Positions 2,188 through 63,720 of a DNA stretch of 64,000 nt are shown here, in pieces. Position 1 is the first letter of the stretch; each line of letters starts with the position of its first letter. The stretch spans positions 124,001 to 188,000 of the forward strand of contig NZ_PKGB01000002.1 in NCBI RefSeq assembly GCF_002848135.1, written 5' to 3'. The notes under the pieces were generated by a model. That model was not told the origin of the DNA and searched no databases. It saw only the letters and a list, made by a program, of their open reading frames with translations. Position numbers and translations under genes: made by a program. The stretch comes from Hydrogenovibrio sp. SC-1. Its GTDB lineage: Bacteria > Pseudomonadota > Gammaproteobacteria > Thiomicrospirales > Thiomicrospiraceae.

Positions 2188-2366
2188 TACCTTTTACCTC
2201 TTTTTATTGAGTGAACCACTCTTTAAAACTATATATTCATTTAAAAAACCCGATCTACGAAATTCTGTCAAAAATTCAGCAATATTAGCTTGACCAAATA
2301 TATACAATATTAACCAGTTTTTATGCAAAATACATATAAATTCTATGGATAAGGGAGGATAAAATT

Positions 2367-3482: not shown

Positions 3483-3562
3483 TGGCGACAATCAGAAACA
3501 GCTTTAGACACTTCTAATTTGCGGATAACCCTTTTCAAGGAGGCCTAGGTTGACAACTTTAA

Positions 3563-3572
3563 CCAGGCCTGG
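3563..3572. repeat. CCAGGCCTGG palindrome, copy 1
   Basis: Perfect 10-bp palindrome (ACC...GGT flanks extend it to 12) located six bases after the prlC stop codon and 81 bases after the barrel gene stop, between convergent genes. Probably a terminator-like element. Confidence 0.7.
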
Positions 3573-3577
3573 TCAAT

Positions 3578-5620: not shown

Positions 5621-5711
5621 TGCTTGGCTCCGAAAGGTCATATTGAAAATCAGCGGTTGATTATACGCAATGCTAAGCCGATTTGAAAACCTTGCTAAAG
5701 GTTACAAGCCA

Positions 5712-7553: not shown

Positions 7554-7681
7554 TGAAAAAATGATCCTGCTTTAATGACTCTATAATGGATACACAAAAT
7601 TTAACACAGATGAACATAACTGAATGATAATAATCGATTCTATGTCCAATTAGTAGCTTATTAATGAATACCTAATATATT

Positions 7682-8266
7682 ATGGAAAAGACCTCTAAAA
7701 ACCGATGCTTTGGCAATCAATCCGGTCATGAAGCCTATGCAAATTACCATGATCACGAATGGGGCATTCCGGTTTATGATGATCAAAAATTATTTGAAAT
7801 GCTCATCTTAGAAGGTGCACAAGCTGGATTGAACTGGGAAACTGTCTTAAATAAACGCGAAGGCTATCGCCAAGCTTTTTATCAATTCGACCCAAATTTG
7901 GTTGCCAAAATGACCGATGATGAATTAGAGAGCTTGCGCCAAAATCCAAAAATTATTCGCAATCGCTTAAAAATCGTTTCTGCCCGTAGTAATGCACGGG
8001 TATTCTTACAAATTCAAAAATCATTTGGCAGTTTTTCAGACTATTTATGGCAGTTTGTCAACCACCAGCCGATTATCAACCACTGGAAAAGTGCTAAAGA
8101 AGTGCCCATAACAACACCCATTAGTGATGCCATTGCGAAAGATTTAAAAAAACGCGGCATGTCCTTTGTGGGTTCAACAATTATTTATGCCTATATGCAA
8201 GCAGTGGGTTTAGTGAATGATCATTTGACCAGCTGTTGGCGCTATCATCAACACACTAAAACTTGA
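7682..8266 (+). CDS. tag: DNA-3-methyladenine glycosylase I
   Basis: A base-excision repair enzyme that removes 3-methyladenine from alkylated DNA. It has 194 residues, the normal size. Family features visible are the N-terminal zinc ligand Cys9, the YHDHEWGIPVYDD block (residues 22-34), the LILEGAQAGLNWETVL active-site helix with its Glu and Trp, and the C-terminal VNDHLTSCWRY segment with the other zinc ligands. It is followed at 7 bases by yjbQ on the same strand, so the two are likely co-transcribed. Confidence 0.96.
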   Translation: MEKTSKNRCFGNQSGHEAYANYHDHEWGIPVYDDQKLFEMLILEGAQAGLNWETVLNKREGYRQAFYQFDPNLVAKMTDDELESLRQNPKIIRNRLKIVSARSNARVFLQIQKSFGSFSDYLWQFVNHQPIINHWKSAKEVPITTPISDAIAKDLKKRGMSFVGSTIIYAYMQAVGLVNDHLTSCWRYHQHTKT

Positions 8267-8273
8267 GGTTCAA

Positions 8274-8693
8274 ATGAAGACTTTTCAAAGCACCCTAACC
8301 TTTCACAGCCCAAATCGCGGAACGTTTAATATCACCGATGAAGTCAACCGCGTTATTGCTGAATCTGAAATCACGACTGGGCTTTGTCACGTCTTCTGTC
8401 AACACACCTCGGCGTCTTTGATCATTACCGAAAATGCCGACCCAACCGTGAGAGTGGACATTGAAAATTGGCTAAAGAAACATATTCCAGATGGCGATGC
8501 AGACTTTCAGCATCGAGATGAAGGACCAGATGATATGTCTGGACACCTACGCACTTTGTTGACTGAAACCAGTCATACCCTTCCAGTCAGTCATGGCCGT
8601 TTAAATATGGGCACCTGGCAAGGGTTGTTTTTATATGAACATCGCACAGGACGATTTCATCGAGAAATCGTCATTACCATACAAGGGTCTTAA
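8274..8693 (+). CDS. yjbQ: YjbQ / UPF0047 family protein
   Basis: A 139-residue protein of the UPF0047 family. Some members have weak thiamine-phosphate synthase activity, but the main cellular role is not settled. The family signature is clear: GLCHVFCQHTSASLIITENADP in the middle, an HLRTLL segment, and the C-terminal GTWQGLFLYEHR block carrying conserved His and Glu residues. It lies 7 bases after tag and 2 bases before the next small gene. Confidence 0.93.
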   Translation: MKTFQSTLTFHSPNRGTFNITDEVNRVIAESEITTGLCHVFCQHTSASLIITENADPTVRVDIENWLKKHIPDGDADFQHRDEGPDDMSGHLRTLLTETSHTLPVSHGRLNMGTWQGLFLYEHRTGRFHREIVITIQGS

Positions 8694-49854: not shown

Positions 49855-50181
49855 TTAAGAGCGCCCGCCACATTTTCCTTCCGAAGATTTTTTACCACCA
49901 CACTTGCCTTCAGATTTTTTCATCTTCATGCCTTCGCCACACTTGCCCTCAGAAGATTTTTTACCACCACATTTGCCTTCAGACTTTTTCATCTTCATGC
50001 CTTCGCCGCATTTACCTTCACCACACTTTCCTTCATGGCTGGATGCGAGGCTGTTTTCATAACCTCTTTCAAGGTTTTTGAATCCAAAATCCGCTTCATT
50101 CGCTAAAGCCGATCCTGAAATAACCGAAGCGGTTGTTGCGCCGGCCAATTTTAAAAACTGTCTACGAGATGTATTTTTCAT
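49855..50181 (-). CDS. HvfA-like Cys-rich RiPP precursor with EGKCG repeats
   Basis: A 108-residue protein. An N-terminal Tat signal (SRRQFLKLAG, residues 5-14; cleavage near ALA-27) is followed by a short spacer and a core with six EGKCG motifs at 50-54, 55-59, 68-72, 78-82, 91-95 and 101-105. A 23-residue unit is exactly duplicated (55-77 and 78-100), seen in DNA as a 69-base tandem repeat. HvfA precursors carry the same motif; in Haemophilus, HvfB (DUF692) and HvfC (DUF2063) turn these Cys residues into copper-binding oxazolone/thioamide groups. Neither enzyme lies nearby, but a DoxX protein (HvfD type) precedes it at 44 bases. AGAGGAAA precedes the ATG. Confidence 0.85.
   Translation of the reverse strand: MKNTSRRQFLKLAGATTASVISGSALANEADFGFKNLERGYENSLASSHEGKCGEGKCGEGMKMKKSEGKCGGKKSSEGKCGEGMKMKKSEGKCGGKKSSEGKCGGRS
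49882..50019 (-). repeat. 69-base coding tandem repeat, two copies
   Basis: 49951-50019 and 49882-49950 encode the same 23 residues of the Cys-rich precursor, with a few synonymous differences. A sign of recent expansion of the metal-binding core. Confidence 0.85.
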
Positions 50182-50225
50182 TTGATTTCCTCTTTGATTC
50201 CATTGAAACTATAAAAAATGAACGG

Positions 50226-50822
50226 CTAATTTTTTTGAAAATGTTTGGCAATCCAATAATCAATGCTAAAGATGCGCCCACCGCCTAAAATAACCAAAGC
50301 TAACAGCATGACCAAATAGGTTACCGCCCACTCTATTCCACTGTTACTTATTACAAATTGGCCTTGTTCCGTAAGCCAATCATAGTGTCCATATTGCTGT
50401 AATAGCGATTTTGCAGCTTCTAGACGTTCCATTGCGCCGTCAATATTCGCACTGGGCCAAGGTGACATAGGGTCGTGAATCGCTTGCCAACCATTTTTCA
50501 AGTGGACAGAAAAAGTCGCCACTAACATAGTGATAATGAGCGGTATACTCGCCCAGCGAGTCGCCAATCCAAGCAACAATAACACCGATCCACCAACTTC
50601 TGCGGCAATGGCTAAGCTGGCCATGAGCTCTGGAAAGGGTAAGCCCAATCCCCACTCAGTATTGCCAAACCATTCGACCACACCTTTAAAGCCCACGATT
50701 TTGTTGGTGCCCGCTACCCAAAAAACGGCGGCTAAATAAAGCCGAATCGGCAGAGTCGCTAAAAAATCGAATTGCTTTGTTGTTTGATTCATAAAACGTT
50801 GAATTTGGATAAGCCATTGCAT
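50226..50822 (-). CDS. DoxX family membrane protein (HvfD-like)
   Basis: A 198-residue inner-membrane protein from ATG at 50822 (AGGA about 7 bases upstream; a TTG two codons earlier is less likely). Four helices and the DoxX signature are present (IRLYLAAVFWVAGTNKI, AIAAEVGGSVLLLLGLATRW). The long loop DPMSPWPSANIDGAMERLE between helices is seen in DoxX proteins encoded with DUF692 systems. It precedes the HvfA-like gene on the same strand and probably shares its transcript. Confidence 0.85.
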   Translation of the reverse strand: MQWLIQIQRFMNQTTKQFDFLATLPIRLYLAAVFWVAGTNKIVGFKGVVEWFGNTEWGLGLPFPELMASLAIAAEVGGSVLLLLGLATRWASIPLIITMLVATFSVHLKNGWQAIHDPMSPWPSANIDGAMERLEAAKSLLQQYGHYDWLTEQGQFVISNSGIEWAVTYLVMLLALVILGGGRIFSIDYWIAKHFQKN

Positions 50823-50909
50823 AAGCAATCCTATTAGTTTATGAATATTCAGATAAAAACATTAACAGTAAATAACGTAGAAAACAACTTAAATGAGAAT
50901 CATTTTTAA

Positions 50910-50919
50910 CCAGGCCTGG
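50910..50919. repeat. CCAGGCCTGG palindrome, copy 7
   Basis: Perfect 10-bp core three bases past the stop codon of the 2OG-Fe(II) oxygenase gene. Confidence 0.65.
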
Positions 50920-50922
50920 TGG

Positions 50923-51567
50923 TTATTTTGCCGGATCAATCACGCCTGCAATACTGGTATTACATCGAAACCAACCTGCAATACTGACCCTGGGCTGTTG
51001 TGTCGGCAGGACTTCATGGGGGATTTGTTCGCTCATAAAAATCATCATCGTGCCAATTTTGGGTATGACGCTCGTTAGTTGAGCTGAACTGTCTTCATTA
51101 TAAATCACCAGTTCACCACCCCAATCGGGTTGCCAATGAGGATTAAGATATAAAACCGTTGTGACCATGCGATTAGCCCGCCCTCTAAAGCTATCTAAAT
51201 GTTTTTTATAAAAGTCACCTGGCTTATAAATTGCAAAATGACTTTCATATTCAAATAGTCCAAGGAATAGCGCTCGGTTGAGCTGATATTGCAAATCAGC
51301 CATTTGTTTGAGGTAGGTCTGTTGCGCGTTTGATGAACCATCTAGCCATCTAATCTTGTCACGTCTAATGTCGTGGTTTAATTGATGGATATCACCCCGT
51401 CCAACGCCTGCAGTTTGTAATTGCCCCTGTTGGTCATGGAATTCTGCTTCGGCCAATAGCTGTTGGCATAGGGCTTCACTCACCGCTTTCGGCCATTCAA
51501 ACCAGCCTTTTTCGACTAAGGCATCCAGAAGTTGATCCATCACTGAATCAGTCAGATTAAGAGACAT
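50923..51567 (-). CDS. 2-oxoglutarate/Fe(II)-dependent oxygenase, prolyl-4-hydroxylase type
   Basis: A 214-residue soluble enzyme of the P4Hc family. The iron ligands appear as HLD in YKKHLDSFRG and the distal His in EQIPHEVLP, and the 2-oxoglutarate-binding Arg is in QPRVSIAGWFR. The block TTVLYLNPHWQPDWGGELVIY is typical. In bacteria such enzymes hydroxylate protein prolines (some act on EF-Tu). The substrate here is not evident. Lies upstream of the DoxX gene with about 100 bases between, so co-transcription is possible. Confidence 0.9.
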   Translation of the reverse strand: MSLNLTDSVMDQLLDALVEKGWFEWPKAVSEALCQQLLAEAEFHDQQGQLQTAGVGRGDIHQLNHDIRRDKIRWLDGSSNAQQTYLKQMADLQYQLNRALFLGLFEYESHFAIYKPGDFYKKHLDSFRGRANRMVTTVLYLNPHWQPDWGGELVIYNEDSSAQLTSVIPKIGTMMIFMSEQIPHEVLPTQQPRVSIAGWFRCNTSIAGVIDPAK

Positions 51568-51718: not shown

Positions 51719-53425
51719 ATGAAACGTCACATTCATAGAATTATAGACAAACCATTGCTTTCGGCATTGGTGGTGGGCAGCATAATTCATGGCTTCATTT
51801 TGCTTGCCATGTTTATTTTTTTAGGGATAGTTGAGACGCAGTCAACTTTGTTTGAAAAATGGCATCTTTCCCCCAGTTTATCCTTGATTCAATTCATTAC
51901 GCCATATTTTGTCCCCTTTTTTGTAACCGTGTTTGCTCAAGAACTGAGTCATCAGAAAATCCAACGTATTTTGCAGCAATTCCCAGAATCTAACCCTAAT
52001 ATTGTTATGCGATTGAATCATGATTTAGTCCCTGACTATATCAATCCGGTTGGTCAGGCCTGGTTAGAAAAGCATGCATTGGACACCCTTTCTTTGAATA
52101 GCTTATTGCCCAGCGCCATGGTTAAAAAACTATCCAACATGCCTAGAAAAGGGGGAGTGATTTATGAGGATGAAAAGCATTTTGGAACAGAAACTTATCA
52201 TTTTAAGGCAAAAGTAGACGAGTTCGGCGCCGTTTTCGTTACAGCAGAAGATATTACTGAAAATAAAAAATTACAGGATTCTTTAAAACATACCCTTTTT
52301 CAACTCAATCAACTGACGTTGCTATTGAATGAAAACTTAAATCACTATGATCCGACGCAATTTGACCTATTTCAAACATTTCAAACAATGTTGAAACAAG
52401 TAGCATTGGCCTCCAATCAGAGTATTGATGTGCCAAATTATGTTTTTTGTACCTTCTCTGAGGAAAATAAAGCGGTTATTGGCCAAATCTACCAGCTAAA
52501 TAAAGACCAAGTGGTTGGTTTGACTGAGCCTTTTAAGCTGGAGTCGACAGGGTATGCCTATGCCATTTCTAAAGGGAAAACCGATATCTTCTACGAAAAA
52601 TGGCAGCCGCAGCAGCAATCGCTAGAGGACTTTCAGCAGCAATTTAACCCAGTTGTTCGTCAACATGTCGGTCTGATTAAGGGCTATGCGACTTATCAAA
52701 GTGGTTCGGTATCGGTTATAGGCTTTTTTAAAACAGAACAATTTGACAAGCAATTCAATGACATTTTGAAACAAATAGCGCTTTTCGGTCATTTTTTTCA
52801 TCGTATCAGTCAAGAAAGCATCGCCATTTATGAACAGTTTGCCTATTCATTAAAGGCCCTGGCAAGGGCTTCTGAAGCGAATGATGAGGACACTGGACAG
52901 CATATTATTCGCATCAACGAATATGCATATGCATTAGCCATTGCATTGGGTCAACCAAAAGCTTTTTGTGATGAGATCCGATTGACTGCGATGATGCATG
53001 ATGTCGGTAAAATTCATTTAGATCCGGCCATTTTGAAGAAACCAGGTGCTTTAACGGATGCTGAAAGAACCGAGATGATGCAACACCCGATCCATGGCGC
53101 CAAAATACTGGGGGAATCCGATAAGATGAAAATGGCGCGAGAAATTGCGCTGTATCATCATGAAAAATTTGATGGTAGTGGTTACCCGAATGGGCTTGCC
53201 GGTTATGACATTCCATTAGCTGCACGCATAGTGAATTTGGTGGATGTATATGATGCATTACGGCAGAAGCGGGTTTATAAGCCAGCGTTTGACCACGAAA
53301 CGGCGTATCAGATAATAACGGAAGGCGATGGGCGTACGAAAGTCGAAGAATTTGATCCAGATATTATGGCAGCCTTTAAGAAAATCCATCATCAGTTTGA
53401 TGATATTTTCACTCGTATGACTTAA
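51719..53425 (+). CDS. Membrane HD-GYP phosphodiesterase with PAS-like and GAF-like regions
   Basis: A 568-residue protein from ATG at 51719 (GGAG five bases upstream; a TTG seven codons earlier is less likely). Two membrane helices (about 15-40 and 58-80) are followed by a PAS-like region (about 90-185), a GAF-like region (about 200-370) and an HD-GYP domain (about 375-560) with HD at 427-428 (MHDVGKIHL) and HH-EKFDG-SGYPNGL. Probably hydrolyses c-di-GMP. Convergent with cynS. Confidence 0.92.
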   Translation: MKRHIHRIIDKPLLSALVVGSIIHGFILLAMFIFLGIVETQSTLFEKWHLSPSLSLIQFITPYFVPFFVTVFAQELSHQKIQRILQQFPESNPNIVMRLNHDLVPDYINPVGQAWLEKHALDTLSLNSLLPSAMVKKLSNMPRKGGVIYEDEKHFGTETYHFKAKVDEFGAVFVTAEDITENKKLQDSLKHTLFQLNQLTLLLNENLNHYDPTQFDLFQTFQTMLKQVALASNQSIDVPNYVFCTFSEENKAVIGQIYQLNKDQVVGLTEPFKLESTGYAYAISKGKTDIFYEKWQPQQQSLEDFQQQFNPVVRQHVGLIKGYATYQSGSVSVIGFFKTEQFDKQFNDILKQIALFGHFFHRISQESIAIYEQFAYSLKALARASEANDEDTGQHIIRINEYAYALAIALGQPKAFCDEIRLTAMMHDVGKIHLDPAILKKPGALTDAERTEMMQHPIHGAKILGESDKMKMAREIALYHHEKFDGSGYPNGLAGYDIPLAARIVNLVDVYDALRQKRVYKPAFDHETAYQIITEGDGRTKVEEFDPDIMAAFKKIHHQFDDIFTRMT

Positions 53426-53433
53426 TGCTAAAG

Positions 53434-53476
53434 ACTTGTTGTTTGGTGTGTAACTCTGCGTCACCAAACAACAAGT
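53434..53476. terminator. 15-bp perfect inverted repeat between convergent genes
   Basis: ACTTGTTGTTTGGTG (53434-53448) and its exact complement (53462-53476) with a 13-base loop. It lies between the ends of the HD-GYP gene and cynS. The T run is short on both strands, so it may be a terminator or an mRNA-stabilising 3' hairpin. Confidence 0.65.
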
Positions 53477-53491
53477 TAAGTTTATTGACTA

Positions 53492-53935
53492 TTACCAAGC
53501 TTTATAAGGTAAGAATTTACCATTCATGGTCACAACAACTCTGTCGCCAGCAGGGTTTTCTTCTTTATCAATATCCATTGAAAAATCAATCGCACTCATA
53601 ATGCCGTCACCGAACTTTTCATGAATCAATTCCTTCATTGTTGGACCATAAACTCCGACAATTTCATACAATCGATAAATCAAAGGATCGGTTGGAACCG
53701 CTTTTTCCCAGGTTTTATGAGGAAAGGTTTGCAAAGCGGTTTCGACGTCGGTGCCGAGCCCTAATAGGGTTGCGACTTTTGCAGCAGGTTCGGCGTCAAG
53801 GTGATTCATGCCTAAGCAGGCAGAGGTGGTATACACTTCACTAAGTCCTGCTGCCGTGGCAATGTCACACCAGCCGATTGATTTTTCAGCTTTAGCTAGG
53901 ATAATCGCTTCAGTCATTTCTACTTTAGACATCAT
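53492..53935 (-). CDS. cynS: Cyanate hydratase (cyanase)
   Basis: Converts cyanate plus bicarbonate to ammonia and CO2 in the cytoplasm. The catalytic residues have the E. coli spacing: Arg88 and Glu91 (YRLYE) and Ser114 (GDGIMSAI). The HEKFGDGIMSAIDF block is diagnostic. The start at 53935 gives 147 residues and puts GGAG 9 bases upstream; ATG at 53950 would give 152 residues but has no ribosome site. No cynT carbonic anhydrase or cynX is adjacent, unlike in E. coli. A sigma-54 promoter lies 45 bases upstream, facing this gene. Confidence 0.95.
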   Translation of the reverse strand: MMSKVEMTEAIILAKAEKSIGWCDIATAAGLSEVYTTSACLGMNHLDAEPAAKVATLLGLGTDVETALQTFPHKTWEKAVPTDPLIYRLYEIVGVYGPTMKELIHEKFGDGIMSAIDFSMDIDKEENPAGDRVVVTMNGKFLPYKAW

Positions 53936-53979
53936 AGTCTTGGTCTCCATTTATGGTTAGTTAAAAGCACCCTCCTTAA

Positions 53980-53995
53980 TGCAATCCTTATGCCA
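53980..53995 (-). promoter_or_regulatory. Sigma-54 (-24/-12) promoter of cynS
   Basis: Reverse-strand TGGCATAAGGATTGCA. It has the invariant GG-N10-GC spacing and matches the consensus TGGCAC-N5-TTGCA at all but one position. The predicted transcript would start near 53969, leaving a short leader before the cynS ATG. Confidence 0.75.
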
Positions 53996-54056
53996 AAATT
54001 GTAACCTATTGATAATTAAGTATAAAATGGATTTTTTGATAGTTGTGAGTTATTTT

Positions 54057-54076
54057 TTGTATATAAATGTATACAA
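54057..54076. promoter_or_regulatory. Upstream activator-like dyad 1 (TTGT-N12-ACAA)
   Basis: TTGTATATAAATGTATACAA, with 7-bp perfect arms TTGTATA/TATACAA. It lies about 60-80 bases from the cynS -24 element and about 115-135 from the osmC-side one. Confidence 0.6.
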
Positions 54077-54086
54077 ACACTAACAA

Positions 54087-54106
54087 TTGTTTAACTTTGT
54101 ACACAA
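54087..54106. promoter_or_regulatory. Upstream activator-like dyad 2 (TTGT-N12-ACAA)
   Basis: TTGTTTAACTTTGTACACAA starts exactly 30 bases after dyad 1, about three helical turns, so both face the same side of the DNA. It also contains TGT-N10-ACA (54088-54103), the classic NifA-type upstream site. It is about 90 bases from either -24 element. Confidence 0.6.
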
Positions 54107-54190
54107 TAAGGTGTGTTATTGCGATACTATTTTAATCTTATTTATAGAAAAATATAATAACTATTTGTTTTATATAGTTTATAAAAATTG

Positions 54191-54206
54191 TGGCACCCTT
54201 TCCGCT
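54191..54206 (+). promoter_or_regulatory. Sigma-54 (-24/-12) promoter of the osmC-like operon
   Basis: TGGCACCCTTTCCGCT, with GG-N10-GC spacing and a perfect TGGCAC element. The transcript would start near 54217, giving a leader of about 50 bases before the ATG at 54268. Confidence 0.75.
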
Positions 54207-54267
54207 ATAGCTAACTCAGTTTCGAAATGTCGAAATATTATTTATTTTAATTGATGAGGAATCACAA

Positions 54268-54807
54268 ATGAGCGAAGTCTATATCCCTTCATGTTTACGT
54301 CCGATTGATAGTGATGGATTAAATAAATTATCAGAAGCTGGTAAAGCGGCACCTGATACTATCAAAACCTTGAAATCGAAAACGGTATTAGAGGGCCAGT
54401 TTAAAAACTTAAACTACATCCGAGATTTAGATCCGGTTGTTGTCGATGAGCCTCCTGTGTTATTGGGTGAAGATACAGCCCCAAACCCTTCTGAAATGGC
54501 ATTGTTATCGCTAGGATCATGTTTATCAGTTGGTGTACAAGCCAATGCCAGCGCTCGCGGTATTAAGTTATCTAAACTTGAAATTGAGTTGGAAGGGGAC
54601 ATTAACATCACTGCCGTATGGGGAACAGGTGATATTGATCCGAACAAAAAACTGGGTGTAACTGAAGTTAGAGCGATGTTTACTATTGTAGCGCCAGATA
54701 CGTCAAAAGAAGACCTAGAGGAATTAGTTCAGCATGCCATTAAGTGGTCTCCTGTCGCTAATACATATATTAACTCTGTCGCCTTGTCAGGCAAATTAGT
54801 GGGTTAA
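54268..54807 (+). CDS. OsmC/Ohr-family protein lacking the second catalytic Cys
   Basis: A 179-residue cytoplasmic protein with GAGGAA seven bases before the ATG. The OsmC core is seen in PNPSEMALLSLGSCLSVGVQANASARGI (about 72-98) with the first active-site Cys at 85. At the usual place of the second Cys, in the C-PVxNT motif, the sequence reads KW-S161-PVANT. A third Cys is at 9. True OsmC and Ohr enzymes need both cysteines for peroxide reduction, so this member probably has another job. It is first in a three-gene sigma-54 operon with a flavoprotein and a rubredoxin reductase. Confidence 0.88.
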   Translation: MSEVYIPSCLRPIDSDGLNKLSEAGKAAPDTIKTLKSKTVLEGQFKNLNYIRDLDPVVVDEPPVLLGEDTAPNPSEMALLSLGSCLSVGVQANASARGIKLSKLEIELEGDINITAVWGTGDIDPNKKLGVTEVRAMFTIVAPDTSKEDLEELVQHAIKWSPVANTYINSVALSGKLVG

Positions 54808-54813
54808 TTTTAG

Positions 54814-54823
54814 CCAGGCCTGG
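54814..54823. repeat. CCAGGCCTGG palindrome, copy 8
   Basis: Perfect core with one extra G/C pair (12 bp), seven bases after the osmC-like stop and inside the operon. It could reduce read-through into the next gene. Confidence 0.65.
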
Positions 54824-54864
54824 CGATTGTTGTCAGGCCAATCTCACTCTGAAGGAGAATGACC

Positions 54865-55947
54865 ATGATCAGTCAAATAGTAGAAAAAGATTTGAAACCC
54901 TTAACGGTCTCAATCGATCACGGACAATATACCACTGAAGTTCTCACAAAAATTGGGCAGGCTGGCGGATTCCGTCACCATATTCCATCGCTAAACAATG
55001 GTGATTTAAATTTGTTTGGCACCATTCAAGATATGGCAACCATTTCAGAAGAATGTATGTCAACCGGGTTTATGATGTGGGCACAGACGGTTTGTGCTTG
55101 GTATATCGAAAATTCGGAAAATGAGTGGTTGAAGTCAGAAATTATGCCTAAGATGGTGGATGGAGAGTATTTTGGTGCCACCGCCTTGTCTAATCCCATG
55201 AAATATTTTGCAGGTATAGAAGACTTAAAACTATCAGCCGAAGAAACTGAGGATGGCTATATCATTAATGGAACCTTGCCATGGGTTTCTAATCTTTTAG
55301 AAGGATCCAGTAATCACTTCTTTGGTTCAATTTTTAGTGTACATGATCATGATAAAAACTATGAAAAGGACGTGATGGCATTGATTCCATGTGACTTGGA
55401 AGGCTTAACCATGAAACAAATGGTCGAGTTTATTGGCATGGAAGGAACCGGTACCTATTCATTATTGTTTGATAATGTATTTTTACCGAAAAAATATTTA
55501 CTGGCCGACCCATTAAAACCGTATTTAGAAAAAATCAAAGCGGGATTCATTTTATTACAAACTGGCATGGCTGCAGGCGTTATCAAAGGATCCATTAATG
55601 AAATGGAGAAAGCCAATTTAACTTTGTCGGAAATTAATGAATTCTTGGATGATTCACCCGAAGAATTAAAAGAAGATTTAGAAGATGCCATTGAGTTGAT
55701 TCAAACACTGTGTGAAGACCCCTTTATTGCCGGGCAAGAGTATATTCAAAGCGTTTTAGAAGCCCGTTTATTGGGAGCTGAAATGTGTAAACGTGCCGCC
55801 GATTCGGTTATGCAACATACGGGTGCCAAAGGATACTTAGTCGATGCCGCTGCACAACGCAAAATGCGTGAAGCTTACTTTGTAATTATTGTAACGCCTT
55901 CCATTAAGCATCTTCGTAAAGAAATCTCTCGTCTTGAAGCGGCTTAG
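54865..55947 (+). CDS. Acyl-CoA-dehydrogenase-like flavoprotein
   Basis: A 360-residue soluble enzyme. ATG at 54865 is chosen because GAAGGAG lies 7 bases before it; an ATG two codons earlier would be too close. The fold follows the family: N-terminal helical domain, middle beta domain with GEYFGATALSNPMKYFAG and GYIINGTLPWVSN, and C-terminal helices with QHTGAKGYLVDAAAQRKMREAYF. Several family members act as FMN/FAD-dependent monooxygenases (DszC, SfnB types) rather than acyl-CoA dehydrogenases. With a rubredoxin reductase next door and no CoA-related genes nearby, an oxygenase role is plausible. The catalytic base cannot be assigned by eye. Confidence 0.82.
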   Translation: MISQIVEKDLKPLTVSIDHGQYTTEVLTKIGQAGGFRHHIPSLNNGDLNLFGTIQDMATISEECMSTGFMMWAQTVCAWYIENSENEWLKSEIMPKMVDGEYFGATALSNPMKYFAGIEDLKLSAEETEDGYIINGTLPWVSNLLEGSSNHFFGSIFSVHDHDKNYEKDVMALIPCDLEGLTMKQMVEFIGMEGTGTYSLLFDNVFLPKKYLLADPLKPYLEKIKAGFILLQTGMAAGVIKGSINEMEKANLTLSEINEFLDDSPEELKEDLEDAIELIQTLCEDPFIAGQEYIQSVLEARLLGAEMCKRAADSVMQHTGAKGYLVDAAAQRKMREAYFVIIVTPSIKHLRKEISRLEAA

Positions 55948-55956
55948 GAGATAAAG

Positions 55957-57324
55957 ATGACTGAAGCCTTTAAAAAGTATATCTGTAAGACCTGCGGCTT
56001 AATTTATGATGAAGAACTGGGCGATCCGGATTCCGGGTTGGCGCCAGGAACCCGATTTGAAGATATTCCGGATGATTGGTATTGCCCGCTGTGTTTAGTC
56101 GGTAAATCAGACTTTATGTTGCTAGATTCGACTAAAGAAAAATCACCTTCTGATTCAGCGCCAAAGCGCAAAGCAAAGAGTCGTGCAGATGTGTTGATTA
56201 TTGGTGCTGGTTATGCTGGTTGGCAAGCAACTGAAAATGTGCGTCAGGCGTTACCAGATGCGGAAATAAGTTTGCTGACAGCCTGTGATGGAACCGTCTA
56301 CCCCAAACCCACTTTATCAATGGCACTGAGCCAGGGCCGAACGCCAGATGATTTGAAGGAAACCACCGCTGACCAAAAAGCAGCTGAATTGAATATTGGT
56401 GTGAAAACCTTAACCAAAGTGATTTCAATCAATGCCCAACGCAAGAAGGTTATGACCACTTCGGGAAGCTATCAGTATGATAAATTGATTTTGGCCACCG
56501 GTGCCAAAGCCCTAACACCCAAAGTTGAAGGTAATGCTGCCAAAGACATGCTGACGATTAATGACTTACCAGCTTATCGACGCTTTATAGAAGCTTTGAA
56601 AGGCAAAAAATCGGTGACTTTGATTGGGGGAGGGTTAATTGCGACAGAACTTGCGGAAGATCTGATTTCGCAATCGATTCAAGTCACGATGGTGATCAGA
56701 GGCGCTCATTTAATGAGTCAGATATTGCCAGAAGCGATCTCTCAAACACTGGAAGCTAAGTTGCAAGCTAAAGGCGTCCAATTTTATAAGAATTCAGAAC
56801 TGAAAGAAATGCACCAGTCAGAAACTGGCTATCAATTGCACACAGATCAAGGCGAGCAGTTTGAAACCGATGTGGTAGTGGCTGCGATTGGTTTGGCGCC
56901 GATTTTGGATTTGGCTAAAAAAGCCAAATTGAAAACCAATATCGGCATTTGCATAGATCAACATTGCTTGACGTCAAATCCTGATATTTTTGCGATTGGC
57001 GATGGTGTTGAATCGGAAGGCGTATTACAAGCCTATTTGGAACCGATTCGACGTCAGGCCAAAGCGATTGCTGCCTATTTAAAAGGTGAAGAAACACACG
57101 CATTTAAAGTCTTACCCAGTTTAATTAAAACTAAAACACCGAGTCTATCCATTATGATTAGCCCGCCGCTGCATGCGACGCATGGACAATGGGAGTCGAC
57201 GCTTATGGTTGGCGATAACCAGCGATTGTTGTACAAAGATGGCGACAAGGTTTCCGGTTTTGCGTTAAGTGGTGAGCTTGTCACCAGTGCTAATGCCCTT
57301 TATAAAGAACTGTTTAGTGCTTAA
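55957..57324 (+). CDS. Rubredoxin / NAD(P)H-dependent FAD reductase fusion
   Basis: A 455-residue electron-transfer protein. Residues 1-55 are a rubredoxin with the four iron ligands Cys10, Cys13, Cys43 and Cys46 (CKTCG, CPLC). A charged linker (58-76) leads to a two-dinucleotide-fold flavoprotein with FAD motif IIGAGYAG (81-88), NAD(P) motif [15 protein letters not shown] (about 222-236), and the C-terminal FAD motif [11 protein letters not shown] (about 345-355). The fusion would pass electrons from NAD(P)H to rubredoxin and on to a partner, probably the flavoprotein encoded nine bases upstream. A terminator follows at 57350. Confidence 0.93.
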
Positions 57325-57347
57325 AAATTTGTTTAAAACTCGCGTTT

Positions 57348-57373
57348 AGGGCCGCATTAGCGGCCTTTTTTTT
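57348..57373 (+). terminator. Intrinsic terminator after the osmC-like operon
   Basis: GGCCGC-ATTA-GCGGCC stem-loop (57350-57365) followed by eight T. It lies 26 bases after the rubredoxin-reductase stop. Confidence 0.92.
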
Positions 57374-57401
57374 AATCTTTTTCTTTCCATTTCAATCAAA
57401 A

Positions 57402-57417
57402 TGACCAGGCCTGGTCA
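57402..57417. repeat. CCAGGCCTGG palindrome, copy 9
   Basis: Core 57405-57414 extended to the perfect 16-bp TGACCAGGCCTGGTCA. It lies between the operon terminator and the rsgA leader. Confidence 0.65.
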
Positions 57418-57494
57418 AATTTGATTAGGTACTTACATTTGTACATCTACTTAAAACATTTGCTAAAATAAAATTCTATTTAAAAATTCCAGAA

Positions 57495-57617
57495 CGGAGA
57501 ATCAGGATGCGTGTCGTCAATCTTCTCCGGGTAGCTTTTCGCTAGATTTGATTCTGCACTGCCCGGTCATTGTACCGGGGCCTAATCGCCCCATCGATTT
57601 ATTGTTACCTAAGGTTT
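57495..57617 (+). promoter_or_regulatory. Structured leader of rsgA with a possible 12-codon leader peptide
   Basis: CGGAGAA pairs with TTCTCCG (57495-57529). CCCGGT-CATTGT-ACCGGG forms a hairpin at 57562-57579, and GGGGC pairs with GCCCC just after, competing with it. An ATG at 57507 with GGAG before it opens MRVVNLLRVAFR and stops at 57545. The GGAG sits in the first stem. This suggests attenuation-type or structure-based control, but I recognise no known riboswitch class. Confidence 0.35.
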
Positions 57618-58728: not shown

Positions 58729-60411
58729 TTATAAGTCCAGTTTTTTCATTCGGTAGCTAAATTGACGCGGGGTCATGTTAAGCAGAAGCGCGGCACGCGT
58801 TTTGTTGCCGCGTGCCATTTCAAGTGCTTGTTTGAGTTGTGCGGATTCGTCTTCGGAAACAGGCCAGTAGGCACGTTTTCCATCCGGTGTTTGCTGGGAA
58901 TTTGGCCAGACCTGGGGATTATTTTGTGGCGGTGGATAGCCACTGGCTGCTGATGCTCTATTAGGGTCTGGTTGCGTTGGCCAGGATTCAACAGTGGGTG
59001 GAGGATTGAGTTCGTTTTCAAGGGGTTTGACGTGCCCGCCGTGGATAATGGCGCTTTCTTCTTGAATGATTTTTTCAATTAATTTGGCGGTAATAAGACG
59101 ACCTTTGTCTGCCATTAACACAGCCCGTTTGACCACGTTTTCCAATTGGCGGATGTTTCCAGGCCATTCGTAAGCTTCGAGAAACGTCATGGTACCTTTA
59201 TCGAAGATGGTGCTGGTATGGTATTCCTGGTTGGCTTGGTTTAAAAAGTGTCGGGCCAGCAGCCGAATATCGCCATCTCTTTCACGTAGTGGGGGTAATT
59301 CGATTGGGAAGACATTTAAACGGTAGAATAGATCCAGACGAAAACGCCCGCCATTGACGGCTTCGTGTAGATCCTTGTGGGAGGCGACGATAATGCGTGT
59401 GTCCACATGAATTTGTTTGGTGCCGCCCACCCGGGTGACGCAGCGCTCTTCTAGGACACGTAATAGCTTGGCTTGCAGGCCGAAATCCAAATCACCGATT
59501 TCATCTAAAAATAAGGTGCCGTTGTTTGCCAGTTCAATCTTGCCTTGTTTGGTCTGTGTTGCACCGGTAAAAGCCCCTTTTTCGTGTCCAAACAGTTCCG
59601 ACTCCAATAAGTCAGGTGGAATGGCAGCGCAGTTGATGGCGATAAAGGGGCCATCTTGCCGATGAGAGGCGAGATGTAACATTCTTGAAAAGCGTTCTTT
59701 CCCTGTTCCAGATTCGCCTTTTAACATCACGGTGACAGCGGTATTGGTTGCGCGGCTGACTTTATTGAGTGCAGAACGCAGTGCAGCACTTTCTCCAATA
59801 ATGCCATATTGACTGCCTTGCCCCAGCGCCATAGCGCGCAGTTGTTCGTTTTCTTCCTTTAAGTATTGAGTTTGTTGTTCAATCATGGCATTGACAGCCA
59901 GAATTTCACTGATAAATAGTGACATCAATTTGAGAACACTCAGATCTCGATCCAGTGAACGGGGGCGTTTGCTAAGACGGTTAACGGCTAAAACGCCAAC
60001 GGTAACGCCATTACGGATAATAGGTAAGGCGATAAAAGCGACCGTTTCTTGAGGCAGGGTTGATCGTTCAACTGTTCGAAATAGGTAGTCGTCTTCTTTA
60101 TCGATATCGGAGACGATAATGGGGCTGCCAGAGTGCATGACTTTTCCAGAAATCCCTTCGCTGATGGCAAAACGTCCTTGGGCGATTTCTTGTTTAGTAA
60201 GACCGTAAGCATAGGCGGTGTATAAGAAGCCTGAGGTGTTTTCTTGTAACAAAACCCGACCGCGATTTAATCCCATTTGTCGAGAAATCAGGCTTAAAAT
60301 AGTGTGTACGGCCTTGTCAGGTTCATAGGCTTTTTCGATTTGCTCAGCCGCTTCTTTAATGACAATGTATTCTGACTGGTTCGCAATATCAATTTGTTCG
60401 ATGTGATTCAC
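58729..60411 (-). CDS. Sigma-54-dependent activator, NifA-like (GAF-AAA-Fis)
   Basis: A 560-residue enhancer-binding protein. GTG at 60411 is chosen because AGGG lies 8 bases upstream; a TTG six codons earlier has none. Order: GAF sensor domain (about 20-180), short coiled coil, AAA domain with Walker A GESGTGKE (about 230), GAFTGA sigma-54 contact loop (about 277) and intact Walker B LFLDEIGD. A Pro/Asn-rich linker of about 60 residues and a Fis-type helix-turn-helix (TRAALLLNMTPRQFSYRMKKL) follow. The last helix and the GAF domain resemble NifA, yet no nif gene is in the window. It is the obvious candidate to activate the three sigma-54 promoters nearby. Confidence 0.92.
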   Translation of the reverse strand: MNHIEQIDIANQSEYIVIKEAAEQIEKAYEPDKAVHTILSLISRQMGLNRGRVLLQENTSGFLYTAYAYGLTKQEIAQGRFAISEGISGKVMHSGSPIIVSDIDKEDDYLFRTVERSTLPQETVAFIALPIIRNGVTVGVLAVNRLSKRPRSLDRDLSVLKLMSLFISEILAVNAMIEQQTQYLKEENEQLRAMALGQGSQYGIIGESAALRSALNKVSRATNTAVTVMLKGESGTGKERFSRMLHLASHRQDGPFIAINCAAIPPDLLESELFGHEKGAFTGATQTKQGKIELANNGTLFLDEIGDLDFGLQAKLLRVLEERCVTRVGGTKQIHVDTRIIVASHKDLHEAVNGGRFRLDLFYRLNVFPIELPPLRERDGDIRLLARHFLNQANQEYHTSTIFDKGTMTFLEAYEWPGNIRQLENVVKRAVLMADKGRLITAKLIEKIIQEESAIIHGGHVKPLENELNPPPTVESWPTQPDPNRASAASGYPPPQNNPQVWPNSQQTPDGKRAYWPVSEDESAQLKQALEMARGNKTRAALLLNMTPRQFSYRMKKLDL

Positions 60412-60503
60412 AGAACGTTCCCTCTTCAAGCCGAATGTTTGTTATATTTTGATGGATTCATATTACCATGTTGTGTGCAAAATCTTAAATGGAGCTCTTT
60501 ATT

Positions 60504-60722
60504 ATGCTGATTTCTTGCCATCTTTACGATCAGCTAGAGCGAGCCGCAATCCAAAAACAAGTCGTGCGCTTGCAATTTGACTCCTCCGCTTCTCAGAGTG
60601 AATTTGAAGGTGTTATCCTTGACCTCTTTAGTCGAAAAGGTCGTGAATTTTTAAAAGCAAAAAACGGCCAAGAATGGCCGCTGTCTGGACTGGTTTCCAT
60701 TGAAACGATTCAAAAAGAATAA
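60504..60722 (+). CDS. Rof-like (Rho-binding antiterminator family) small protein
   Basis: A 72-residue protein from ATG at 60504 (GGAG about 11 bases upstream; an ATG five codons earlier is less likely). ISCHLYDQLERAAIQKQVVRLQF and the GVILDLFSRKGREFLKA segment resemble Rof/YaeO, which binds Rho and blocks termination. The similarity is judged by eye on a short protein. Divergent from the sigma-54 activator with about 90 bases between. Confidence 0.6.
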   Translation: MLISCHLYDQLERAAIQKQVVRLQFDSSASQSEFEGVILDLFSRKGREFLKAKNGQEWPLSGLVSIETIQKE

Positions 60723-60762: not shown

Positions 60763-61593
60763 TTATTCCACATGCCAAGAGTAGCGTTTGATTAGGGTGA
60801 CGGCAATAAAGTCCAGCAAATATCCGATGACCCCAATAACCACTACGACGGCGGCTAAAGTATCATATTCAAGGGTATCTCGGGCATCGTTGATGGCGTA
60901 CCCGAGTCCTGACGTGACACCGAGATATTCAGCAGGAACTAAGACAACCCAGGCGACCCCAATGGCTAGACGAATACCCGCAAATACATCTTGTGCGATG
61001 GCAGGCATAATCACTCGACGGAGCATTTGATAGCCATCGGCACCTAAGTTTCTTGCTACTTGGAACCAGTTAGGATCAATACGTTGCACCCCATGCGCCG
61101 TTCCAAATACGATTGGCCAAATGGTTGCCATCGCTAACAAAAACACGATTGCTGAGTCCCAAGTTTCAAAGGCTAAGACGGCAATCGGCATCCAAGCCAA
61201 AGGGCTAATCATACGCAAGAACTGAAATGGCATATTGGCAATTTGTCGGAACATTAAGAAGTAGCCAACCAACACTCCGGTAGGCACCCCAATTACAACC
61301 CCCCAGAAAAGGCCGCTGATAATTCGCGACAAACTGGAATAAATCGTTTCCCAAATAGAGCCGGTTTCAATTAGGTACCATAGTGCCGAAAAAGTGGCTT
61401 CTGGTGCAAATGCCGCAAAGGCTTCTGTATCTGGGTTTGCAGAGATTAAAATCCCGCCTATCCACCAGACTAGGAGCAGAATGAGCATGCCACTGGTGGC
61501 ATTAATCATACTCTGTAGCCAGTTTGGCAGGTTTTTAAAGCCTGCCAGGGCTTGTCCGAATGAAAGTTGGGGTTTGATTTGACTATCGCTCAT
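60763..61593 (-). CDS. ABC transporter permease, nitrate/sulfonate/taurine type
   Basis: A 276-residue inner-membrane permease with six helices. The EAA motif lies in VARNLGADGYQMLRRVIMPAIAQDVFAGIRLAIGVAWVVLVPAEY (about 170-215), which is typical of the SsuC/TauC/NrtB family. It overlaps the binding-protein gene by four bases and is last in the operon. The substrate is not shown by the permease alone. Confidence 0.93.
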   Translation of the reverse strand: MSDSQIKPQLSFGQALAGFKNLPNWLQSMINATSGMLILLLVWWIGGILISANPDTEAFAAFAPEATFSALWYLIETGSIWETIYSSLSRIISGLFWGVVIGVPTGVLVGYFLMFRQIANMPFQFLRMISPLAWMPIAVLAFETWDSAIVFLLAMATIWPIVFGTAHGVQRIDPNWFQVARNLGADGYQMLRRVIMPAIAQDVFAGIRLAIGVAWVVLVPAEYLGVTSGLGYAINDARDTLEYDTLAAVVVVIGVIGYLLDFIAVTLIKRYSWHVE

Positions 61594-62846
61594 AGTTTAA
61601 ACACCTCTTCTCGGTGCGTTGGGTTGTCTAAATCAACCCCTCTCACTTTGCCCCAAACATCGTATTTATCCATGGCATTTTTAACGTAATCATAGTTCAC
61701 CAAGTCTTTGACGATGAAGTCAGTATCTAGGTTATCCATAAAGCTCTTATCGCCGGTGACCAAGGTTTCTTTTAGCTGATCCACAATAAACTTGGTCGCG
61801 GAAGGATAAGGGTAAGGGTTAAAGTCGATTCGGCTTACATCCCAATCAGGGTGCTTGATGGCTTTTGGATCTTCATAATGGGTTGGTGCATAATCCGTCA
61901 TTGCTTTAAGAACCACTTTAGCCTTCATCGGAAGGTATCGTTTACCTTCACGCGATAGCATTTTAGCAACTTCTTCTTTGTTTTCTTGAGCATATAGAGC
62001 TCCTCTAACAACGGCATTCATCACTTTTTGTGACCATTCTGGACGCTTATCAACATCGTTATCATGCATACAGACCACACAACAAGGGTGATTTTTCCAA
62101 ATATCACCAGTAAATCGAAGCATTTTCGCACCAGCAAGGACTTCTCCAGCTGCATTAAATGGTTCTGCAACAATATAAGCATCAATTTTTTTCGCGGCCA
62201 AGGCCGGGGGCATGTCTGGTGGTGGCATGATTTGTAAGTTAACTTGGTTCGGCTTAAGTGGCTTGGTTTGATCTTGAATCACTGGCTCAAGACCAGCATT
62301 TTTTAGGGCCATTTGTAAAACGATATTGTGCATGGAATACCAGTAAGGTACCGCAATTTGCATGCCACCTAATTCTTCAAACGCATCCACCCCCGTATGT
62401 CTTCCGACCACTAATCCTGATCCATTCGTGTGTGCCCAACTGGTAATTTTAACTGGGAAATTATTGTTGTAGCGCATCCAAATTGGAATGGGCTTTAAGA
62501 AATGCACTAAGTTGAATTTATGTGCTGCGAAGCCTTCAATTAGTGGTGACCAGCCGCGGATTAACGTTGGCTTTTCAGCCTTTAATCCTTCATCTTCAAA
62601 AAAACCCATGGCATGAGCCACTAATAATGCACTGGCATCGGTAATGGGTAAATATCCGATACGAACCACTTCATCATCTGGTGGGGTCATATTGGCAAAT
62701 GCTTGAGTCGATGGCAAGCTCATAGCTGCAGCTAGCCCTCCTGCTGTTGCTAAACTGTCGAGAATGAATTCACGACGACCTTTCTCGGGGTTATAGATAT
62801 AGTCGTGTTCTGATGACTCGTGATTACCATTGCAATATTGACACAT
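61590..62846 (-). CDS. ABC transporter substrate-binding protein (NrtA/SsuA-like) with Tat signal
   Basis: A 418-residue periplasmic protein. The N-terminus is unusual: MCQYCNGNH carries a CxxC with nearby His residues and is followed by a twin-arginine signal (GRREFILDSLATAGG, RR at 24-25; cleavage near AFA-51). Tat export suggests folding or cofactor loading before export. The mature part is NrtA/CmpA-like in type (VVRIGYLPITDASALLVAHAMGFFEDEGL; VAEPFNAAGEVLAGAKMLRFTGDIWKNHPCCVV). Nitrate, bicarbonate, cyanate or an organic N/S compound are all conceivable substrates. Located between ATPase and permease genes. Confidence 0.9.
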   Translation of the reverse strand: MCQYCNGNHESSEHDYIYNPEKGRREFILDSLATAGGLAAAMSLPSTQAFANMTPPDDEVVRIGYLPITDASALLVAHAMGFFEDEGLKAEKPTLIRGWSPLIEGFAAHKFNLVHFLKPIPIWMRYNNNFPVKITSWAHTNGSGLVVGRHTGVDAFEELGGMQIAVPYWYSMHNIVLQMALKNAGLEPVIQDQTKPLKPNQVNLQIMPPPDMPPALAAKKIDAYIVAEPFNAAGEVLAGAKMLRFTGDIWKNHPCCVVCMHDNDVDKRPEWSQKVMNAVVRGALYAQENKEEVAKMLSREGKRYLPMKAKVVLKAMTDYAPTHYEDPKAIKHPDWDVSRIDFNPYPYPSATKFIVDQLKETLVTGDKSFMDNLDTDFIVKDLVNYDYVKNAMDKYDVWGKVRGVDLDNPTHREEVFKL

Positions 62847-62887: not shown

Positions 62888-63676
62888 TTATAAATTGTCT
62901 TCGTTAATGCTGTTTTGTTTCGCTATGTCAATTTTTTCGAATTCATTGAATAACTTTTCTTTCAAACTGATGAACTCATCGACAGAGCGATCACGTGGGT
63001 AGGTAAGGTTGACCTCCATCTCGCCGACAATTTCTCCAGGGTTTTGGCTCATAATGACAACCTTGTCTGCCATCGCAACCGCCTCATCAATGTCATGGGT
63101 TACCATAACCATGGTGATACCTTGGTTGTGGCAAATCTCGGCCACTTCATTTTGTAGCTGCGTCCGAGTGAATGCATCTAACGCAGAGAAGGGTTCATCT
63201 AGTAATAGAATTTCTGGCTCAGTGGCTAGTGAGCGTGCAAGCGCAACACGTTGTTGTTGTCCGCCCGATAATTGTTGGACATTCTTGTCTTTGTGTTCTG
63301 CCAGACCGACCATCTCCAATAATGTTTCAACCCGATCTTGTTTAGCTTTGTAGGTGCCAGAAAATACCAATCCTAGTGCCGCATTTTCACGGACAGTCAT
63401 CCAAGGGTATAACGAAGGTTTTTGAAACATCATGTTCCATTTCGCACTGGGCTTAGTCACAGTGTGAGCATTGATACGAACCGCACCATCTGAAGGAATC
63501 AGTAATCCGGCAAGCATCTGCAATAGCGTTGATTTACCACAGCCGCTGCGGCCGATCAGAGCCGTTAATTGACCCTTTGGAATGGTGAGATTAATGTTTT
63601 TAAGAGTGGGTTTGGTTTGTTTCTTAAACGTATGGGATAAGTCTGAAATCCAAACACTAGAGGCTTTTGTTGTCAT
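62888..63676 (-). CDS. ABC transporter ATP-binding protein, nitrate/sulfonate/taurine type
   Basis: A 262-residue ATPase from ATG at 63676. Walker A IGRSGCGKST (about 41-50), signature LSGGQQQR (about 136-143), Walker B ILLLDEPFSALD (about 156-167), and the switch His in VTHDIDEA. It is the SsuB/TauB/NrtD type. First gene of the three-gene operon, downstream of a sigma-54 promoter. Confidence 0.94.
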   Translation of the reverse strand: MTTKASSVWISDLSHTFKKQTKPTLKNINLTIPKGQLTALIGRSGCGKSTLLQMLAGLLIPSDGAVRINAHTVTKPSAKWNMMFQKPSLYPWMTVRENAALGLVFSGTYKAKQDRVETLLEMVGLAEHKDKNVQQLSGGQQQRVALARSLATEPEILLLDEPFSALDAFTRTQLQNEVAEICHNQGITMVMVTHDIDEAVAMADKVVIMSQNPGEIVGEMEVNLTYPRDRSVDEFISLKEKLFNEFEKIDIAKQNSINEDNL

Positions 63677-63720
63677 ATTCAAATAGTCTTCAATTAGTTA
63701 AGTTTTGTTATGGTTATTAA

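Follow-up and report, generated by a model that had tools for sequence, protein, structure and literature searches.

Gene content of the locus

In Hydrogenovibrio sp. SC-1, the cyanase gene cynS is divergent to an operon that encodes an OsmC-fold protein, a flavoprotein of the acyl-CoA dehydrogenase fold, and a rubredoxin fused to a NorW-like NAD(P)H:rubredoxin reductase. The region was analyzed in a 64,000-nucleotide stretch of the genome (the window; 124001-188000 of contig C2 in a genome of 2.45 Mb and 41 contigs), and positions given below are those of the window. A preliminary description of this DNA had named the four genes and had placed outward-facing -24/-12 promoters, both with GG-N10-GC, on either side of two TTGT-N12-ACAA dyads that lie 30 bp apart (start to start) midway between them. 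The gene names are borne out by profile matches, and the promoters and dyads are present where they had been placed. Comparison with related genomes supports the view that both promoters are of the sigma-54 type, with shared, helically phased sites between them. The original observation is confirmed, and it stands firmer than first claimed.

The module extends beyond these four genes (Table 1). It also includes an activator gene, genes for an ATP-binding cassette (ABC) transporter and, just outside the window, a porin-like gene (L044:910-2187; L and G numbers denote individual loci and genomes). A Pfam search found no match for this porin-like gene, and its relative in L042 scored 22.4 against a cut-off of 25.2 for Alginate_exp. 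The start of cynS is probably at 53935, with an in-frame ATG further upstream at 53950, and the inverted repeat between cynS and the convergent gene is a probable terminator common to both. The rubredoxin-reductase fusion matches NF003437 with 297.2 bits, below that model's cut-off of 392. By flavoprotein identity, the nearest named loci are those of Thiomicrospira/Thiomicrorhabdus-type sulfur oxidisers, and the top identity (94%) is to a metagenome-assembled genome labelled Piscirickettsiaceae.

Table 1. Genes and predicted regulatory elements of the module in the window
Feature	Position	Strand	Basis or remark
15-bp inverted repeat between cynS and convergent upstream gene	53434..53476	.	arm ACTTGTTGTTTGGTG and its reverse complement
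cynS, cyanase	53492..53935	-	TIGR00673, 176.9 bits (cut-off 113.3); open reading frame 53492-53950
cynS -24/-12 promoter TTGGCATAAGGATTGCA	53980..53996	-	score 12 of 12; conserved in orthologues
Activator dyad 1 (predicted), TTGTATATAAATGTATACAA	54057..54076	.	
Activator dyad 2 (predicted), TTGTTTAACTTTGTACACAA	54087..54106	.	
osmC operon -24/-12 promoter GTGGCACCCTTTCCGCT	54190..54206	+	score 9; conserved in orthologues and 12/15 distant loci
OsmC-fold protein	54268..54807	+	PF02566, 67.9 bits
Acyl-CoA-dehydrogenase-fold flavoprotein	54859..55947	+	PF02771; AlphaFold pLDDT 94.3
Rubredoxin fused to NorW-like NAD(P)H:rubredoxin reductase	55957..57324	+	PF00301, PF07992, PF18113
Intrinsic terminator of osmC operon (predicted)	57348..57367	+	
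Probable activator, GAF-AAA+-Fis enhancer-binding protein	58729..60429	-	PF01590, PF00158, PF02954; GAFTGA at residue 285
Small Rof-like protein, between activator and transporter	60504..60722	+	PF07073, 25.0 bits, just under cut-off 27.6
ABC transporter permease	60763..61593	-	PF00528
Substrate-binding protein, 'type A'	61590..62846	-	PF13379; Tat-like signal (RREF) and conserved HPCC motif (alignment of 19)
ABC transporter ATPase	62888..63682	-	PF00005
ABC ATPase -24/-12 element TTGGCACTTCACAAGCT	about 63737-63721	-	upstream of ATPase gene

Conservation of promoters and operators

Both promoters of the divergon have GG-N10-GC, and the forward promoter carries CCGC rather than TTGC as its -12 half. 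The conservation of GG-N10-GC near the genes, an rpoN gene in the source genome, and a GAFTGA-bearing enhancer-binding protein in the module all agree with sigma-54 control. Could these elements nevertheless be fortuitous -24/-12 and TTGT/ACAA strings in AT-rich sequence that is transcribed from sigma-70 promoters? Counts within the window are near chance, with 143 promoter-like matches at up to two mismatches (128.5 expected) and four TTGT-N12-ACAA matches (2.49 expected), so that the dyads alone are unremarkable there. Sigma-70-like matches also occur, eight within 53400-57500 against 11.0 in shuffles. However, across the 2.45-Mb genome the composite pattern TTGT-N12-ACA-N60-90-GGCAY-N7-GC matches only twice, both times in this divergon, and its reversed control does not match at all. 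Together with the conservation and phasing in relatives and the enrichment at independent promoters described below, this leaves a chance origin hardly credible.

Conservation was assessed in 25 Thiomicrospiraceae cynS-osmC divergons, of which 21 were kept after near-copies had been removed; kinship was otherwise uncorrected in the shuffle and Rayleigh tests. L028 is a repeat of L002, and L043 (22% identity) was left out. Of the 21 divergons, 17 have GG-N10-GC on either side, GC being absent from the forward -12 in L011, L018, and L020 and from the reverse -12 in L005. The best promoter scores range from 7 to 11 on the forward side and from 8 to 12 on the reverse side, whereas 0.8% of shuffles reach a score of 9 forward and 0.3% reach 10 reverse. 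The dyads, whose loss in relatives would have spoken against the preliminary description, are conserved as well: TTGT-N12-ACAA was counted 12 times, compared with 0.48 in shuffled sequence. A shorter spacing, TTGT-N2-ACAA, occurs 13 times against 0.41. The other TTGT/ACAA spacings from 0 to 19 that were seen more than once were, besides N2, N3 (6), N13 (4), and N1 (3). Expectation-maximisation from TGT/ACA seeds yielded a palindromic consensus, TGTtaacAATTgttaACA, and TTGT-N12-ACAA can be read as two adjoining TTGTNNACAA-like units, 10 bp apart.

Likewise, osmC is preceded by a -24/-12 element with a score of at least 10 in 12 of the 15 distant loci. Operators were counted in these 12 loci with a credible osmC promoter, less L101 and L040, and in the resulting 10 regions GACA-n-TGTC occurs 8 times against 0.04 expected. 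One family divergon, L004 (G014), has a cynS-osmC intergenic region 172 bp longer than that of its near relative L003; an inverted-repeat element lies between the cynS start and its -24/-12, and the operators and promoters look intact.

Helical phasing of the two promoters

The distance from one -24 element to the other is quantised. It measures 183-186 bp in eight divergons, 193-196 bp in eight, 204-207 bp in four, and 215 bp in one. These distances are phased at a period of 10.45 bp (R 0.80; Rayleigh about 1.6e-6; 21 divergons), and none of 20,000 uniform draws was as phased. Phase tests between sites and promoters involve some circularity, since the motif has a 10-bp repeat of its own, whereas the test between the two -24 elements is independent of the motif. 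On the flavoprotein tree, parsimony places eight changes of spacing class, some of them between close sisters (195/204, 195/215, and 185/196). In other words, the spacer changes that survived appear to be of about whole helical turns. Such indels are taken here as the strongest sign that a single activator on the DNA has to face both promoters.

A probable linked activator and the fate of the NifA analogy

Which protein would bind the shared sites? The GAF-type protein encoded at 58729-60429 is likely the activator of the module because its orthologues (E <= 1e-100) and the flavoprotein (E <= 1e-20) are found in an identical set of 27 genomes among the 62 of the family (Fisher 3.6e-18). A GAF-type activator was found in 39 of the 42 flavoprotein loci compared, and all 39 have the GAF N-terminus. 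The three loci lacking it (L039, L109, and L110) sit on short contigs or begin at the end of a contig. By contrast, among the cynS surroundings of 20 flavoprotein-less genomes, activator matches were present in five, best to a PAS-type protein; of the four checked, three are full-length and have the PAS-type N-terminus, and one is a fragment matching neither N-terminus. The 58729-60429 protein may thus be the one that binds the dyads.

The linked activator resembles NifA in its GAF-AAA+-Fis layout and in that its best NCBIfam model is nifA, but its score of 427.7 bits is under the nifA equivalog cut-off of 528.85. The operator differs as well, being TGT-N12-ACA or TTGT-N2-ACAA rather than TGT-N10-ACA. 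The second dyad had been likened to a NifA site, and its TGT-N10-ACA match is real, but this spacing is at chance in the 21 divergons (3 versus 2.5 expected) and is not enriched upstream of the ABC ATPase (3 versus 1.56) or of the porin-like genes (0 versus 1.12). A NifA-type operator is therefore rejected, and the analogy fails. The broader proposal, that one activator at shared sites switches both transcripts, keeps its shared, phased sites and its single process and loses only the NifA-type site.

An alternative is that the operators are real and are bound by another activator, such as NtrC. The source genome has four further Sigma54_activat matches (E 7e-29 or better), and half-sites resembling those of NtrC (GGTGCA/TGCACC, from a box consensus that is assumed here) are enriched at the ABC operon, with 13 against 2.22 expected. 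These half-sites are not enriched at the porin-like gene (3 versus 1.7) or in the divergon (0 versus 0.39). The absence from the divergon, and the presence of the linked activator in all 27 flavoprotein genomes and in none of the other 35 at the cut-off used, make a different activator unlikely. The half-sites at the ABC operon hint at possible nitrogen or NtrC control of the transporter operon.

Between the activator and permease genes lies a divergent gene for a small protein resembling Rof, a Rho modulator. By tblastn, 21 of the 25 other Thiomicrospiraceae loci gave a match to it, and none of the 15 distant loci did.

A wider regulon

The motif learned on the divergons was applied to 21 regions that precede the ABC ATPase gene and to 14 that precede porin-like genes; L046, L054, L056, and L057 were omitted from these motif counts and from the NtrC half-site counts. 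TGT-N12-ACA occurs 13 times in the ABC regions against 1.67 expected and 10 times in the porin-like regions against 1.01 expected. The regulon is therefore larger than four genes. In the source genome, a good promoter and a site of 11.5 bits precede the porin-like gene.

Co-occurrence of the redox genes with cyanase

The preliminary description had reasoned that cyanase and the oxidoreductases serve one pathway, and related genomes agree with it. The flavoprotein is present in 27 of 62 Thiomicrospiraceae genomes. At all 27 loci it stands together with OsmC and the rubredoxin reductase, and at 25 of them divergent cynS adjoins the osmC operon. Only L021, which lies at a contig edge, and L027 depart from this arrangement, and their genomes have cynS elsewhere. 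Within the family, cynS is found in 27 of 27 genomes with the flavoprotein and in 6 of 35 without it. In the class Gammaproteobacteria, 14 of 369 genomes have the flavoprotein, 12 of them outside the family. Here cynS accompanies it in 13 of the 14 genomes (one match being partial), versus 38 of 355 genomes without the flavoprotein (Fisher 2e-11), and in 11 of the 12 distant genomes. This association supports a single process for cyanase and the redox genes.

Another explanation is an oxidative-stress regulon, with OsmC acting as a peroxidase, rubredoxin supplying electrons, and cyanase incidental. OsmC-fold and rubredoxin proteins are often found in peroxide and superoxide defence. However, cyanase is almost always with the flavoprotein, and the two share a promoter region in 25 of the 27 family loci. 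Furthermore, the OsmC protein here has one invariant Cys, Cys85 (alignment of 21), and Ser (SPV) at what is taken to be the position of the family's usual second Cys. The stress reading is disfavoured and appears quite improbable.

The company of the module varies. Among 16 distant loci, a DUF302 gene is added in five, a rhodanese gene in six, and a CopD-like gene in three. The DUF302-type gene lies between the flavoprotein and rubredoxin-reductase genes in L102, L103, L105, L106, and L109, and DUF302-type proteins recur in or near the module (L042:8010-8471; L029:12463-12909, labelled by sequence cluster only; L106:8868-9248). In L042, a second cluster beside the module (1133-8471) holds a CopD-like gene, a rhodanese, a cyanate-type ABC transporter, a PAS-type activator, and DUF302. 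This species would thus appear to possess the known cyanase-linked system as well as the new one. Two family genomes with the module, G010 and G014, have about 50% G+C at the locus and might conceivably belong to the clade of H. thermophilus S5, and L099-L101, with 66% G+C, resemble Guyparkeria.

Elsewhere in the window, at 49855-51567, genes for DoxX and a 2-oxoglutarate-Fe(II) oxygenase adjoin one for a Tat-signal protein whose sequence has GKCG/EGKCG repeats. This repeat protein presumably resembles copper-binding 'bufferin' peptides. The sole DUF692-type enzyme found in the genome is on contig C8, away from the contig of the GKCG-repeat protein.

Features of the flavoprotein and the transporter

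The AlphaFold model and structure matches place the flavoprotein in the acyl-CoA dehydrogenase fold. Its nearest solved folds are butyryl- and short-chain acyl-CoA dehydrogenases (TMq 0.72-0.85 among the 50 matches listed). Its invariant Cys66 was considered as a special residue and rejected, as ordinary butyryl-CoA dehydrogenases have a Cys at the aligned position.

The substrate-binding proteins are of two types, both with the HPCC motif. Thirteen others are of the window type, with 56-85% identity to the window protein, and the second type is 25-27% identical to it. Flavoprotein-less genomes, too, carry the second type next to cynS. This type gives strong matches to nitrate- and bicarbonate-transport proteins with solved structures, whereas the window type scores weakly.

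Relation to known systems

The preliminary description knew of no described system with this gene set. That claim stands in part. The cynFABDS system of Pseudomonas pseudoalcaligenes CECT5344, as described in the available excerpts of PMC6627978, comprises cyanase, an ABC cyanate transporter, and a sigma-54 Fis-type activator for nitrogen assimilation, and its structural genes have a putative sigma-54 promoter. Likewise, cyanate lyase is among sigma-54-regulated genes enriched in alpha- and gammaproteobacteria (PMC12316311, in excerpt). The window module shares cyanase, ABC transporter, and sigma-54 activator with cynFABDS, but OsmC, flavoprotein, and rubredoxin reductase are absent from the available description of the latter (PMC6627978), as compared with which the module also has two divergent sigma-54 promoters with shared operators. 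Cyn-like loci of flavoprotein-less genomes differ in the same direction. The activators checked there are PAS-type whereas those of the module are GAF-type, the window binding protein is 25-27% identical to the type found there, and none of 20 such cynS loci gave a best match to the window-type activator or substrate-binding protein. Identity with cynFABDS is rejected on these grounds, taken from the published description and from the cyn-like loci of flavoprotein-less genomes, and the system is kept as the nearest relative. A sigma-54-controlled cyanase with an ABC transporter is thus known. Searches of the open-licence PubMed Central (PMC) literature found no account of the redox genes, of the GAF-type activator, or of the shared operators and their phasing, and the excerpts of PMC9062700, PMC5596200, and PMC5069961 do not mention the gene set.

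Two other systems invite comparison. In Thioalkalivibrio and Guyparkeria, thiocyanate dehydrogenase (TcDH) opens a cyanate pathway with a copper enzyme and copper-transport genes (PMC5744179 and PMC6504805, in excerpt). The likeness lies in the sulfur-oxidising hosts, the cyanate product, and, according to the same excerpts, a sigma-54 Fis-type regulator near the Thioalkalivibrio TcDH operon. The difference is that profile scans, with no TcDH query run, named no copper protein among the window module genes, while a CopD-like gene adjoins the module in L038-L040 and the second cluster in L042. NCBIfam matches also point to the selenocysteine-assisted organometal (SAO) transporter locus (excerpted from PMC13188914). 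The permease resembles SaoP (144 bits, cut-off 295) and OsmC an OsmC-related (seleno)protein model (46.6 bits, cut-off 95). All such matches are below cut-off, and no SAO lyase or thioredoxin model was among the matches listed for the scanned proteins, although no search was aimed at them. The SAO system was rejected.

Proposed function of the module

What does the module do? It is probably a sigma-54 regulon for taking up a small nitrogen compound and converting it by redox chemistry, with cyanase as the end step. In the proposed mechanism, the outward-facing -24/-12 promoters of cynS and the osmC operon would use the common palindromic operators midway between them. The GAF-type activator, encoded beside the transporter, would sense the compound, bind the shared operators as an oligomer, and contact both promoters by DNA looping, switching cynS, the osmC operon, and the other members of the regulon together. 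The compound would be imported by the ABC system and converted into cyanate by the flavoprotein, helped by the thiol protein OsmC. The fused rubredoxin/rubredoxin reductase would feed electrons to the flavoprotein or take them off, with rubredoxin in place of an electron-transfer flavoprotein. Cyanase would then split cyanate into ammonia and CO2.

Several observations weigh against this reading. On the regulatory side, exact TTGT-N12-ACAA is present in just 11 of the 21 divergons, and the best 18-mer sites of L015, L017, and L020 score at most 9.0 bits. Well-supported branches of the flavoprotein tree force fewer changes of spacing class by themselves (3, 2, and 2 for the three larger classes). 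Among the distant loci, L041, L107, and L110 are without a credible osmC promoter, and the operators drift to GACA-n-TGTC or TTGTC, with TGT-N12-ACA (2 versus 0.52) not clearly enriched. A -24/-12 element scoring at least 9 is present in just 10 of the 21 ABC regions and 9 of the 14 porin-like regions; it is absent from porin-like L047, L048, L051, and L052, which may be paralogues. The ABC operon of the source genome combines a good promoter with operators that are all weak (6.8 bits at most), and the half-site scan of the ABC, porin-like, and divergon regions gave no complete NtrC-type dyad. On the side of gene content, G382 has the flavoprotein and no cynS match in a genome that is 85% complete, and the cynS match of G109 is partial, at a contig end. 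Finally, where the IYEGT-type motif would be expected that presumably carries the C-terminal catalytic Glu of acyl-CoA dehydrogenases, the flavoprotein has REAYFVIIVTPS (by ungapped extension past the end of the profile alignment), and it seems to lack the usual catalytic Glu.

As the compound, thiocyanate or cyanide would best fit the gene company. An undescribed cytoplasmic route from such a pseudohalide to cyanate may be put forward tentatively for sulfur-oxidising and other proteobacteria. In it, rubredoxin would serve the acyl-CoA-dehydrogenase-fold flavoprotein, a single-Cys OsmC would accept the sulfur or cyano group, and the route would have an ABC importer and a GAF-type sigma-54 activator of its own. 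Literature physiology on thiocyanate, taken from excerpts, points both ways. Thiocyanate supports weak growth of H. thermophilus S5, whose genome encodes a cyanate ABC transporter and CynS. In H. crunogenus, strain TH-55 is thiocyanate-negative and strain XCL-2 has no such transporter (PMC5733100). In Guyparkeria, cyn is present in all genomes, but only one strain is reported with thiocyanate as energy source (PMC9032823).

It is also conceivable that the transported compound is cyanate itself and that no cyanate is made, OsmC, flavoprotein, and rubredoxin being accessory, for example in thiol or redox repair under cyanate load. Cyanate carbamoylates thiols, which suits such a role. Furthermore, the second-type binding protein is linked to the module in L040, L041, L099-L101, and L108, and it is ~60% identical to the proteins beside cynS in flavoprotein-less L118, L128, and L132, whose arrangement is that called cynFABDS in the excerpts of PMC6627978. 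On the other hand, cyanate assimilation in P. pseudoalcaligenes is described there with cynFABDS only. The window-type binding protein is also far from the second type, and module activators are GAF-type in 39 of 39 cases as opposed to PAS-type in the three cynS-linked activators checked, which points to a different signal. Import of cyanate as the whole function is accordingly rather doubtful.

The helical-turn quantisation between divergent sigma-54 promoters is a natural experiment on the face-of-helix needs of a shared activator. A candidate set of activator, operator, and promoter can also be named for a module that tracks cyanase in Gammaproteobacteria. The module therefore predicts an unknown cyanate source in sulfur oxidisers, which would bear on thiocyanate and cyanide removal and on nitrogen supply at vents.

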